The notes under the pieces: model-generated | The model's database searches: none | Told to the model about the DNA's origin: nothing | The model's input: only the letters and a program-made list of their open reading frames with translations | Made by a program: the position numbers and the translations under genes | In this document: positions 10,630 through 51,332 of the stretch, piece by piece | Numbering within the stretch: the first letter of the stretch is position 1 | Layout: every line of letters begins with the position of its first letter | Source of the DNA: Hyphococcus sp. | GTDB lineage: Bacteria; Pseudomonadota; Alphaproteobacteria; Caulobacterales; Parvularculaceae | Length of the DNA stretch: 64,000 bases | Direction of reading: 5' to 3' | Assembly (NCBI GenBank): GCA_028284345.1 | Contig: JANQRY010000006.1 | Coordinates: 496,001-560,000, forward strand

Positions 10630-11426
10630 TCGCGAAACGCCGTTTTCGCCGGCTGCTCCGTAACCGGATAGCCCATATCGTCCGGGATCGTCAGGTAGTG
10701 TTCCCCGTCGCGCTCTATGATTTCAGGAATGACGACATCGATGCGCCGCCTAGCGGCGAAATCGATAACGCTCGTCGCGCTGTCAGAGACATTGAGAAGC
10801 TCAATGTTGCGGCGCGTCGGAAAAATCGCCTTTCGCTTTCCGGCGTCGCAGGATGAAAGAATTGCCGCGGGCGGGGCCCAGAACGCCTCCGTCGCCTCAT
10901 TGCCGTCCTCGCGCGCTTCCTGCCCCGGCGGCGTGATGGCGGCGAAGAACCAGGTGTGATAGCGGCGCATAGTTTCGTGGCCTCGCGCGGGCGGCTCCCA
11001 GCGCGCAAACAGATGCAGCGCATCGAGCGCAAGGCGCAGGCCGTTTGACCGGATGAGATCGAGGAAAAGACCGTCGTCATCTTCCACGGCCTTTCGTCGA
11101 TCATTAAGCGCCGCCGCCTCATCATTGGAGATCAAGGCGCCGTTGCGGCGCGCATAGAGAACGCCGACTTCTTCAAAGGCTTCGCGGATGGCGGCGACGC
11201 GGGGGCCGAACTCTTGGTCGGGGATCGCGTCAACGCCGTCGCAATGGTCGCGCCATGCATCCGCCGCGTCCGACGCCTCGATGCGCCCGCCGGGAAAGAC
11301 GATGGCGCCGCCAGCGAAGGGCGTATCGGCGTGGCGCTCGATCATCAGGACTTCGAATTGCGGCGCGTCGCGCAACAAGATGATCGTCGCGGCGGGAATG
11401 GCGCCAACTGTTGGCTTAGTTGTCAA
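10626..11426 (-). CDS. Nudix hydrolase (NUDT19-like)
   Basis: The 266-residue product carries a split Nudix box: FPGGRIEASD, then after an insertion of about 25 residues REAFEEVGVL with the catalytic Glu pair. The long gap between the two halves is typical of the NUDT7/NUDT19-like branch, which hydrolyses CoA esters in eukaryotes. The bacterial substrate is not established, so a CoA-thioester or nucleoside diphosphate substrate is only a guess. Its first codons overlap the stop of the upstream membrane-protein gene by 11 bases, indicating an operon on the minus strand. Confidence 0.87.
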   Translation of the reverse strand: MTTKPTVGAIPAATIILLRDAPQFEVLMIERHADTPFAGGAIVFPGGRIEASDAADAWRDHCDGVDAIPDQEFGPRVAAIREAFEEVGVLYARRNGALISNDEAAALNDRRKAVEDDDGLFLDLIRSNGLRLALDALHLFARWEPPARGHETMRRYHTWFFAAITPPGQEAREDGNEATEAFWAPPAAILSSCDAGKRKAIFPTRRNIELLNVSDSATSVIDFAARRRIDVVIPEIIERDGEHYLTIPDDMGYPVTEQPAKTAFRD

Positions 11427-11811
11427 AGAGCGACTCTTTTGGCTTGCCCGGGCGGTATTGCCTCTCCGCCTTCAGTAGCCTGCCGGCGAGCCAGCCGCCA
11501 GCCGCGCATGCAGCAGCCGACAAGGGCCAGACCCATAGGGGCAATTTGAATGAGAGGATGGTGATGACCGCGGCAAAGAAAATTGTCGCCGCGCTCAACC
11601 ATCCGAGCGGCGCCCAACGCCGCCCGACGAGCAGCGCGATCAATGATGCGGCAAACGCGCCGATTAGATATCCAACAGTAAGCCCAAGATATTCCTGCGC
11701 GCTCGCCGCCTCCCCCGGCGCAACGCCCCCGCCGAGAACGCCTTCAATAAACTTTGCAAGCGCGAGACCGATAATGGTGGCGAGGATAATGGCGGCAAGG
11801 TTGCGGAGCAT
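11416..11811 (-). CDS. Small membrane protein of unknown function
   Basis: This 131-residue protein has four predicted transmembrane segments: residues 4-24, about 45-65, 70-90 and 93-112. It has a basic cytoplasmic-type tail. The second and third helices carry Gly/Ala packing patterns (GYLIGAFAASLIALLVG). I recognise no domain. It lies directly after the purL-bolA gene, whose stop is adjacent, and overlaps the Nudix gene, so the three are likely co-transcribed. Confidence 0.75.
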   Translation of the reverse strand: MLRNLAAIILATIIGLALAKFIEGVLGGGVAPGEAASAQEYLGLTVGYLIGAFAASLIALLVGRRWAPLGWLSAATIFFAAVITILSFKLPLWVWPLSAAACAAGGWLAGRLLKAERQYRPGKPKESLFDN

Positions 11812-12045
11812 TTACTCCTTCGCTTCCGTCTCCAGCGCCAGGGCGTGCAACTCGCCGCCCATGCGTCCTTTCAATGCTCTGTAGACCAACTGATGCTGCT
11901 GGACGCGGGACTTGCCGTTGAAGGCCGCGGACACGATGCGCGCGCGGTAATGGTCGCCGTCGCCGGCGAGGTCCTCGATTTCGATGTCCGCATCGGGCAT
12001 GGCCTCAAGGATCAGCTTTTTGATGTCGTCCGCGGCCATGGGCAT
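11812..12045 (-). CDS. bolA: BolA-like domain, possibly also translated alone
   Basis: Within the PurL frame, an ATG read at 12045 is preceded by AAGGAGA (12057-12051) with five bases of spacing. It opens a 77-residue reading frame of exactly normal BolA size ([10 protein letters not shown] to the shared stop). This suggests that free BolA is still made by internal initiation as well as a PurL-BolA fusion. BolA proteins work with CGFS monothiol glutaredoxins in Fe-S cluster handling; such a glutaredoxin is encoded at 50988-51332. Internal initiation is inferred from the ribosome binding site only. Confidence 0.6.
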
Positions 12046-14535
12046 GGCGCTCTCCTTCGCTGTTTCGGCGTTCATGTAGTCGCGCAGGCGCGAGTCAAAA
12101 ATATCAGATAAATCAAGGAGCGAGATCGTATCGCTCTCATCCAGCACGATGTCCGGCCCGCCAAAGCGGCCGATGCGCGAGGCCTGAACCCCGGCCATCG
12201 CCGCCTTGAGGAGCAGCGTGTCAGCGGCGGACGGCGTCGCGGCGACCAGATACCGACCCTGATCCTCGCCGAACCAGAAGGCGGCCTTGCGCGCCTTCAC
12301 CGGCGTGTGGAGATTAAGGCCCCGGCCCGCCGCCAGCGCCATTTCCGCGGCGGCGACAATGAGCCCGCCATCGGAGACATCGTGACAGGCGGTGATTAGT
12401 CCCTCGTCGATCAGCTTACGGATCAGCTCGCCATTGCGGCGCTCCGCTTCGAGGTCGACCGGCGGCGGCGCGCCCTCGGTGATGTCGAACAGGTCGCGCA
12501 GGTAAATCGACTGGCCGAGATGCCCACGAGTAACGCCGATGGCGATCAGTTCCTCGCCCATCTCCGCGCCGCCGACGCGGGTCGCTTTGGTCGCGTCCTC
12601 AATGACGCCGACGCCGCCAATGGCCGGGGTCGGCGGGATCGCCTGCCCGTTGGTTTCGTTGTAAAGGGACACATTGCCGGAAACGACCGGATAGCCGAGC
12701 ACCTCGCACGCCTCGGCGACGCCTTCGACGGCGCCCACAAACTGGCCCATGATTTCCGGGCGTTCCGGATTGCCGAAATTGAGGCAGTTGGTGATCGCCA
12801 GCGGCGCGGCGCCCGTCGCGCAGATATTGCGGAAGGTTTCGGCGACCGCCTGCTTGCCGCCCATGCGCGGGTCGGCCTTGACGTAGCGCGGCGTCACGTC
12901 GGTTGAAATGGCGAGGCCGCGACCGGTTCCATGGACGCGTACAAGCGCTGCATCGCCTCCCGGCGCAATGACCGTATCACCCATGACCGTGTGGTCGTAT
13001 TGTTCCCAGATCCAGCGGCGCGAGCAGAGGTCCGGCGTTTCCATCAACGCCGCGAGCGCCGTAAGGATGGTGTCACCGCCGGGATTTTCCGCAAGATTGG
13101 CGTCTTCGTCCCGGGTTTGCATCTCTGCCCTCGCAACCATGCCGGCGGACTGCAAATTCTCCGCCGCCTCGCGGACGGACTCGAAGGTCCCGCTCCCTTG
13201 CGTCAGGCGCGCATAGATAACCGCCTCGCCTTCCATGGCAGACCATCCGGCGCCGTCAACGCCATCGAGAGCGATTATGCGGTCGGCGACCAGGGCGCCG
13301 GCGATCTGCTCCATCTCCTCCCGGGGTTTCTCAGCGGAGAGCGTAATGCGCGCCTCGCGCACGGCGACGCTCGGGTCTTCCAGCTCCGCGGGCGGCGACG
13401 TCTCCTCGTAAGGCCGGTCGTAGTTCGGCGCGTCGTCGGCCAGCGGTTTCACCGGCATGTCGGCGACGGTTTCGCCTTTATGCTTGATCACCAGCCGTCC
13501 GTCGCGGGTCGTCTCCCCGATCACGGCGAAGTCGACGCCCCATTTGTCGAAGATAGCGCGAGCCTGCTCCTCCTTGTCAGGCTGCAAGACCATCAGCATC
13601 CGCTCCTGGGACTCCGACAGCATCATTTCGTAAGGCGTCATGTTCTCTTCGCGCTGGGGCACGTGATCGAGATCGAGAACAAACCCGCCCCCGCCCTTCG
13701 CCGCCATCTCAACGGATGACGAGGTGAGGCCCGCCGCGCCCATATCCTGAATGGCGATGATCGCGTCCGACGCCATCAGTTCGAGACAGGCTTCGAGGAG
13801 CAGTTTCTCTGTAAACGGATCGCCCACCTGTACGGTCGGACGTTTTTCGTCGGACTCATCGTCAAACTCCGCCGACGCCATGGTCGCGCCATGAATGCCG
13901 TCCCGGCCGGTTTTCGAGCCCACATAGACGACCGGATTGCCAGCGCCGCGCGCCGCGGAATAAAAGATGCGCCCCTTTTCGGCGACGCCCACGGTCATGG
14001 CGTTGACGAGGATGTTGCCGTTATAGCCGGCGTCGAAATTGGTCTCGCCGCCGACCGTCGGCACGCCCATGCAGTTGCCGTAGCCGCCAATGCCGGCGAC
14101 GACGCCGGAAACGAGGTGTCGGGTTTTCGGGTGGTCCCATTCGCCAAAGCGCAGGGCGTTCATATTGGCGACAGGCCGCGCGCCCATGGTGAAAACGTCG
14201 CGCATGATGCCGCCGACGCCGGTCGCCGCGCCCTGATAGGGCTCGATGAAAGACGGGTGGTTGTGGCTTTCCATCTTGAAGATGGCGGCGTAGCCGTCGC
14301 CGATATCGATGACGCCCGCGTTCTCGCCCGGCCCCTGAATGACCCACGGCGCCGAGGTCGGCAGTTTCTTCAGATGCCGGCGCGAGGATTTATAGGAACA
14401 ATGCTCGGACCACATGACAGAAAAAATCCCGAGTTCAACGAGATTGGGCTCCCGGCCCATATGCTCCTTGATGCGGTCGTATTCTTCAGGCTTCAGGCCG
14501 TGTTCGGCGACAATCTCGGGCGTAATGGCGGTCAT
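11812..14535 (-). CDS. purL: PurL (FGAM synthase subunit II) fused in frame to BolA
   Basis: Residues 1 to about 830 are the small-type PurL, which converts FGAR, Gln-derived ammonia and ATP to FGAM in purine synthesis. Visible motifs are [32 protein letters not shown] and CHDVSDGGL. With no stop codon the frame runs into a complete 77-residue BolA domain ([30 protein letters not shown]). In relatives purL and bolA are separate neighbours. A second oddity is about 130 residues between DRPYEE (near 368) and PDLCSRRW (near 499), where I expect 30-35. No purS or purQ adjoins. Confidence 0.9.
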
Positions 14536-14628: not shown

Positions 14629-15552
14629 CTAGCGCGCGGGATAAAGATAATCCTCGGGCAGGCCGAGCCGCCGACAGGCCTGCGCGGCGGGGCTTGATCG
14701 CAACAGGTAGCGTTCGCCCCGGCGCGCCAGCCGCTCGACGACAGGCCGCTCAAACGGCCGCAATCCGAAACGGGGCGCAAGGCCCAGCACATCGCGGATC
14801 GGCGCCGGAACGATATCGACGGCGGCGCGCACCAGCGAACGCTGTAGGAGATGCGCCGGCGGCGGAAAGGCCGGGGCGCGGCGCATGATGTTGCGAAATT
14901 CGAAGACGATGTCGCTCGCTTCAAAGCGCGAGGCGGCCTCTTCAAACAGCGCGCGCTGCTCGCTCAAGCGTTGCGGCGCGCCGGTCGCGCCATAAAGGGC
15001 CGCAGCCGTCCGGCCCTCGCGATAATACCGGTCGCGATCATCGTCAGTCAGCGGCGACGCGTAGGCGCTGTAGGCTTCCAGGAACCCGAACGCTGCCGTC
15101 GCCTGCACCCAGGTGAGAAGGTCGGGATCGAGCGCGTGGTACGCCGCGCCGGAGGGCAATGTCCCTTCAACGCGGGCGTGCATCCGCGTCACATTGGCGA
15201 TCATTTTCTCCGCAAGGGGACGCGCGCCGTAAACCGTGATCATGGCAGCGAGCCCGGTTCGCTTCAGGCGTAACACCGGATCGGCGCGGAAGTTCGAATG
15301 CTCCCAGACGCCGGTCCGCACTTTCGGGTCGGCGAACTCCATGAACACCGCAGCGACGCCGCCGATGAACAAGGTCACCGGGTTCTTGAAAATGCGCCAG
15401 GAAACGGAGTCCGGCCCGACCAGCGCCGGGACACCCGCCGGCTTTGAAAAATCCGGCGTCTTGATACGCGAGTCGCTGAGGAAGTCTCGCGCCGCCGCGT
15501 CGAGCCGCGCCTCGGCGATGTCGTGCAGACCTGAACGCAGACTGCCAAGCAT
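14629..15552 (-). CDS. MpaB-like oxygenase (DUF2236 family)
   Basis: The 307-residue product belongs to the DUF2236/MpaB family of heme-dependent or latex-clearing-like oxygenases. Supporting segments are SVSWRIFKNPVTLFIGGVAAVFMEFADPKV near the N-terminus, then RVEGTLPSGAAYHALDPDLLTWVQATAAFGFLEAY. The His-rich heme-binding region typical of the family is represented by HARVEG and YHALDP. It has no export signal. It stands alone upstream of purL on the same strand with about 90 bases between them. Substrate unknown. Confidence 0.82.
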   Translation of the reverse strand: MLGSLRSGLHDIAEARLDAAARDFLSDSRIKTPDFSKPAGVPALVGPDSVSWRIFKNPVTLFIGGVAAVFMEFADPKVRTGVWEHSNFRADPVLRLKRTGLAAMITVYGARPLAEKMIANVTRMHARVEGTLPSGAAYHALDPDLLTWVQATAAFGFLEAYSAYASPLTDDDRDRYYREGRTAAALYGATGAPQRLSEQRALFEEAASRFEASDIVFEFRNIMRRAPAFPPPAHLLQRSLVRAAVDIVPAPIRDVLGLAPRFGLRPFERPVVERLARRGERYLLRSSPAAQACRRLGLPEDYLYPAR

Positions 15553-50987: not shown

Positions 50988-51332
50988 TTAAGACGTCTTT
51001 TCGGCGAGCTTAACGCCTTTTTCCTCAAGGAAACTGCGCAGCTCTCCGCTTTCGAACATCTCGCGCACGATATCGCAGCCGCCGACAAATTCGCCTTTCA
51101 CATAGAGCTGGGGAATGGTCGGCCAGTCCGAAAAGTCCTTGATCCCCTGACGCAGATCGTCGGACTCGAGGACGTTGGCGGAACTGAACTCTGCGCCGAG
51201 ATAATCGAGAATCTGAACGACGACAGAGGAAAACCCGCATTGCGGAAACTGGGGCGTTCCCTTCATGAACAGCATGACGGGATTGGCGCTCACTTTCGAT
51301 TGAATATCGGCAATCGCCGGATTCTCACTCAT
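50988..51332 (-). CDS. grxD: Monothiol glutaredoxin (CGFS type)
   Basis: The 114-residue protein has the CGFS active site at residues 32-35 (PQCGFSS) plus [34 protein letters not shown], the marks of Grx4-type monothiol glutaredoxins. These assemble with BolA to carry [2Fe-2S] clusters. In many Alphaproteobacteria grxD follows purL-bolA directly; here it is 36 kb away from the fused bolA. It stands alone, with a small gap to the upstream reductase-like gene. Confidence 0.95.

Follow-up and report, generated by a model that had tools for sequence, protein, structure and literature searches.

Excerpts of the study of SmYrbA, a BolA-type protein of Sinorhizobium meliloti, report that it heterodimerizes with the monothiol glutaredoxin SmGrx2 and that divalent metals are bound by its His32 and His67, the residues that serve the Fe–S cluster when BolA proteins pair with Grx; the same excerpts record chimeric Grx–BolA proteins in Methylococcales (PMC7538681). 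In-frame internal starts are known, going by excerpts of the respective papers, from archaeal Cas11b (PMC11899642) and from the second endolysin within lysA of Ms6 (PMC3111421). Dual products through internal in-frame starts and BolA–glutaredoxin chimeras are thus already on record, and neighbouring purL and bolA genes are common in the genomes compared here. Small-type PurL (FGAM synthase subunit II; NF002290 / TIGR01736) has solved representatives from T. thermophilus (3viu) and T. maritima (PurLQS, 3d54), which are the closest solved sequences and folds to the PurL described below.

The locus analyzed here lies in a window of 64,000 nt (the whole stretch of DNA under study) from Hyphococcus sp., family Parvularculaceae (hereafter “the family”). 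Like the Methylococcales chimeras, it encodes a natural BolA fusion, but the partner of BolA is a purine enzyme instead of a glutaredoxin, and an internal start has been kept. As with Cas11b and Ms6 lysA, insofar as the excerpts describe them, one frame is proposed to give two products by internal initiation; there the short product is part of one protein, whereas here a formerly separate gene appears to have been captured by fusion. The window PurL has both halves in common with the solved small-type enzymes and differs from them by an extra domain of ~92 residues between the halves and by a C-terminal BolA domain. SmYrbA is a separate small protein, whereas the window BolA is also the tail of PurL; as in the S. 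meliloti system, a Grx4-type partner is encoded in the window genome. No PurL–BolA fusion appeared among the matches listed in the open-licence PMC literature on PurL, BolA or PurS. We consider it likely that this single gene specifies two proteins, a PurL–BolA fusion and a free BolA made from a retained internal start.

Architecture of the fused frame

As the original prediction had it, a minus-strand frame (14535-11812) runs without an internal stop from PurL into a 77-residue BolA. It comprises 907 codons from ATG to TAA and encodes, in order, PurL, a short linker and a BolA of YrbA type (Table 1), with calculated masses of 97.0 kDa for the PurL–BolA fusion and 8.5 kDa for BolA alone. Profile searches confirmed the identity of both parts (PurL: 1024.3 bits against NCBIfam NF002290, cut-off 648, and 942.7 bits against TIGR01736, cut-off 525.75; BolA: 53.2 bits against Pfam PF01722, cut-off 25.7). 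The first part had been called a complete small-type PurL; with two curated cut-offs passed, the assignment to PurL stands, but the protein is not a plain small-type enzyme, having an extra domain at residues 389-480. This insertion of ~92 residues between the PurL halves had been overlooked, and together with the BolA tail it brings the protein to 907 aa. Within the EHCSYKS motif of PurL, H45 was kept in 45/45 sequences having that column. PurS is encoded by a separate gene in the same genome (PF02700, 116.6 bits, G000:C7).

Table 1. Features of the fused gene and of the glutaredoxin gene, in nucleotide positions of the window unless residues are given
Feature	Position	Strand	Remarks
PurL N-terminal half, residues 1-384	13384..14535	-	FGAR-AT linker, first AIRS/AIRS_C pair
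EHCSYKS motif of PurL	residues 44-50	-	In N-terminal half
Inserted beta-alpha-beta-beta-alpha-beta domain, residues 389-480	13096..13371	-	Between PurL halves; family-wide, fast-evolving
PurL C-terminal half, residues 490-820	12076..13068	-	
Variable linker, residues 821-830	12046..12075	-	pLDDT <50; no stop in 54 family junctions
Internal Shine-Dalgarno AAGGAGA of BolA	12051..12057	-	
Internal ATG, putative start of free BolA	12043..12045	-	Kept in 54/54 family junctions
BolA domain, 77 aa, YrbA/BolA_H type	11815..12045	-	With H32 and H67
TAA stop closing the fused frame	11812..11814	-	
Grx4-type monothiol glutaredoxin	51024..51311	-	TIGR00365 over cut-off; G000:C4:547024-547311

The flanks of the gene hold two further frames on the same strand. 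An ORF of 131 aa (window 11416-11811), without a Pfam match, begins right behind the stop codon of BolA (TAA-ATG) and is closely preceded by AAGGAG, and a gene for an MpaB/Lcp oxygenase-like protein (14629-15552) lies directly upstream of purL.

An AlphaFold model of the fusion reached a mean pLDDT of 85.9 and a pTM of 0.84 (52-row alignment). Confidence was low in PurL loops at 217-225, 228-237 and 514-518 and in the linker at 821-830, and BolA was predicted to be folded.

Distribution of the fusion and its likely origin

A search of 62 family genomes with the fused protein gave a match in 58, and in 55 of these the match crossed the junction. All 55 were free of stops (8/9 genera), lending the predicted fusion comparative support; near-full-length matches were 66-93% identical to the protein of the window, and five of the stop-free members are listed as single-contig genomes (G004, G049, G054, G065 and G073). 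Fragments ending short of the junction were obtained from G011, G060 and G077, and no match from G044, G046, G057 or G062. An open frame of this kind could come from a sequencing or assembly artefact, through a missed stop or indel, but because it recurs in every junction-crossing family genome, five of them as a single contig, such an artefact can be ruled out, its probability being negligible. Two of the genomes without a match, G046 and G057 (given as 98% complete), gave no match to either PurL or the fused BolA, which counts against the main reading; PurS and Grx4 are present in both, and the missing fusion may reflect an assembly gap or a real loss, so that the two were not taken as natural knock-outs of purL.

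Sampling at wider taxonomic ranks placed the open junction within the family. In a sample of the order (398 genomes; E up to 1e-40), 41 of 43 family genomes were stop-free over the junction, the other two being the matchless G046 and G057, and 12/12 spanning matches from other families carried one stop. Among the score-sorted matches listed for a sample of the class (387 genomes), the genome of the window alone was stop-free, and at least 73 spanning matches had one or more stops. In a sample of the phylum (397 genomes; E up to 1e-35), two family genomes were stop-free and six others had stops. The original prediction had suggested looking in relatives for an ancestral stop codon at the junction, and outside the family one was found. 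Across 80 named loci, L069 and L070 were fused; bolA lay 5-154 nt past the purL stop in 26 and 4.5 kb off in L107, and in 51 there was no bolA downstream of purL within the available stretch (these include L071, from a member of the family, whose sequence ends before the junction).

Several candidates for a fusion outside the family, flagged by open frames around BolA, were considered and rejected. In G034, and likewise in G619, G524, G632, G487, L124 and L130, PurL is in another frame or is ended by a stop; in G219, PurL finishes before the long BolA frame starts; and in L077 and L145 (shorter open frames, of 83 and 65 codons), PurL and bolA are separate genes.

The purL–bolA neighbours of other Alphaproteobacteria have the same gene order as the fusion, and a Shine-Dalgarno (SD) motif precedes the start of the separate bolA genes of relatives in 26/35 cases; they differ from the fusion in that purL is ended by a stop codon, or in that purL and bolA occupy different frames. 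Because the spanning matches listed from outside the family all carry a stop, adjacent but separate genes are the likely ancestor, and the ancestral state was probably a purL–bolA pair with a stop between. The ancestor of the family would then probably have lost the purL stop within such a pair while the ribosome-binding site of bolA was kept.

The probable internal start and the open linker

The original prediction placed AAGGAGA at 12057-12051 ahead of an ATG at 12045, which is exactly what the window holds, and proposed that free BolA is made from the same mRNA. Conservation was assessed in one junction from each of 54 family genomes, all of them distinct (G042 was left out). The BolA ATG was kept in 54/54, and an SD motif lay 5-16 nt upstream of it in 53/54, compared with 115/1260 (9.1%) of the other in-frame ATGs of the same PurL genes and a background of 7.6% over codon positions (n = 38330). 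The spacing between motif and ATG was 6-10 nt. In 42 junctions GGAG occupied codon phase 2, four had it in phase 0 (L151, L153, L158 and L164), and seven had AGGA only, in the same register as the 42. Because different residues spell the motif (KE, TE, ME, PE, QE, EE, GE, KD and VGGD), the bases are conserved and not one peptide. Predicted RNA folding was weaker at the BolA start than at 809 other positions (mean of -6.34 vs -10.74 kcal/mol). The single junction without a motif, L064 (genome G043), is identical to that of L070 and keeps both the ATG and the frame. Conserved in its bases across a variable linker, this pairing of SD motif and ATG supports the predicted second product, and the internal start very probably gives free BolA.

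The fusion could instead be the sole product, with BolA working only in tethered form and the SD-like motif and methionine being relics or the outcome of a preference for Lys-Glu in the linker. KE codons do spell AAGGAG, one lineage lacks the motif, and drawing synonymous codons at random yielded a mean of 28.0 motifs, with a maximum of 42/54 (3000 runs); since this null already yields 28/54, part of the SD bias is due to Lys-Glu. When the final 8, 10 or 12 codons of the linker were shuffled, the means were 14.1, 11.3 and 9.2 and the maximum 26/54 (2000 runs). The observed 53/54 exceeds the maxima of both the synonymous draws (42) and the codon shuffles (26), though these nulls are generous, because the junction sequences share kinship and their independence is overstated. 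The residues spelling the motif vary, four junctions carry it in another codon phase and RNA structure is weak at the BolA start, all of which speak against a fusion without a second product, and we find that explanation improbable. SD-like motifs inside coding sequences have also been proposed to slow ribosomes, a view that is disputed, and the motif sits exactly at the PurL/BolA boundary, where a pause between folding domains might be expected. However, it stays 6-10 nt from an invariant ATG despite the changing length of the linker, which initiation would require but pausing would not, and the same layout precedes the separate bolA of relatives (26/35), so that a pausing site in place of a start is very improbable.

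The linker is the most variable part of the protein, with a mean pairwise identity of 33% over 46 sequences (insertion, 41%; PurL halves, 84% and 74%; BolA, 79%), and ten different lengths of it, always in frame, occur between 9 and 28 codons, counted from a conserved LP. Its low predicted confidence (pLDDT <50) would suit release of free BolA from the fusion by proteolysis, but the linker shows no sign of a conserved peptide motif, and both its length and its sequence vary freely; cleavage as the source of free BolA therefore seems very improbable, and internal initiation is the reading we retain.

No stop codon was found in 694 linker codons from 54 genomes. The expectation under neutrality was simulated on trees of the 46 near-full sequences. 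On a third-position tree (length 33.8), all 46 tips remained stop-free in 0/3000 runs, with a linker of either 9 or 12 codons; on a slower tree built from all sites, this occurred in 31/3000 runs for 9 codons and 6/3000 for 12. Because the model is simple (it is without indels and has a fixed composition), these simulations lend strong rather than exact support to the conclusion that the fused product matters. A different account would have the fusion as a tolerated passenger, in which functional BolA comes from the internal start only and the PurL tail is idle. The strong conservation of the internal start, the seemingly flexible linker (pLDDT <50 at 821-830) and the intact PurL core all agree with this. 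On this account linker stops should cost nothing, but the 694 codons over 54 genomes contain none, and stop-free outcomes were absent from 3000 simulations on the third-position tree and reached only 6-31 of 3000 on the slower one; we regard a passive tail as unlikely. The open frame and the internal start both look to be under selection.

The inserted domain, the likely BolA partner and what the fusion may mean

In 46 near-full family sequences, fixed anchors on either side of the insertion are 110-119 residues apart. The insertion was missing from 8/8 same-order PurLs compared. Of the PurLs at the 80 named loci, 64 were measurable and 16 were not; 61 of the 64 lacked the insertion, the remaining three being family members. 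Modelled alone, it took the same beta-alpha-beta-beta-alpha-beta fold as in the full model (mean pLDDT of 84.6, 4-row alignment), an order which is that of ferredoxin-like folds. An inserted PurS, suggested by the order of strands and helices, was considered and rejected: four insertion peptides gave no match to PF02700, hhalign against seven family PurS sequences returned a probability of 0.83%, the top 50 Foldseek matches lent no support, and the genome has a separate PurS. The insertion and PurS have only this topology in common. The top 50 Foldseek matches were mixed small alpha/beta folds, all weak, headed by 2dtj_A, the regulatory subunit of an aspartate kinase (E 2.8e-4, TM 0.42, rmsd 6.8); the predicted fold might be ACT-like, which we offer as a lead only.

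For BolA, the closest solved chain was 5nfk, YrbA (E 7.5e-26), which we take to be the Sinorhizobium meliloti YrbA protein. Assignment to BolA proper (NF008638/PRK11628) was rejected, at 28 bits vs an equivalog cut-off of 137. The genome of the window has a single copy of a close YrbA-type BolA; a second BolA is encoded there by a separate gene, to which the Pfam profile fits end to end. Both histidines, H32 of the [H/C] loop and the C-terminal H67, are kept family-wide (H32 in 53/53 sequences, H67 in 52/52). The SmYrbA residues Asp25, Leu26, Asp29, His32, Phe42 and His67, as named in the excerpts of that study, recur at the same positions in the window BolA (PMC7538681). A Grx4-type glutaredoxin was found in 56/62 family genomes, in 55 of them over the cut-off. 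By analogy with the S. meliloti pair, the window BolA would be expected to bind Grx4 through a [2Fe-2S] cluster on H32/H67. In the window, ~36 kb separate the Grx4 gene from the fusion; the distance shrinks to ~1 kb in genus g19 (G075, G076), where Grx4 is downstream of the fusion, and a Grx4-like ORF, judged by eye, follows bolA in L045, L048 and L050.

The proposed course of events is as follows. Ribosomes starting at the purL ATG would meet no stop, as can be read directly from the DNA, and would make the 97-kDa PurL–BolA protein; others, to judge from the conservation of the site, very probably start at the internal AAGGAG...ATG and make a free BolA of 8.5 kDa. Free BolA would be the window genome's only close YrbA-type copy, with Grx4 as its putative partner, and the tethered copy would physically join an iron/redox module to FGAM synthase. 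To our knowledge, PurL is not an Fe–S enzyme. As a weakly held guess, the tether might allow the BolA–Grx4 pair to influence the PurL complex or signal to it, or it might fix the proportion of the products; that it couples FGAM synthesis to redox or Fe–S state is speculative. The most extended form of this idea is that FGAM synthase in Parvularculaceae is iron/redox-linked, with the tethered BolA ([2Fe-2S] with Grx4) and the perhaps ACT-like insertion tuning purine synthesis to iron or redox state, while the same mRNA also gives free BolA; we hold this to be possible, with the odds against it.

Across one bacterial family, then, selection has apparently preserved both a fused gene and the original start site of the gene that was captured. 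The lineage of L064 and L070, without an SD motif, offers a natural test of the dependence on free BolA. Seen in this light, the adjacency of purL and bolA in many other Alphaproteobacteria is no mere oddity of gene order but a functional link that can be tested. The fusion in Parvularculaceae bears on the function of small BolA proteins in bacteria and points to purine synthesis as a possible site of their action.
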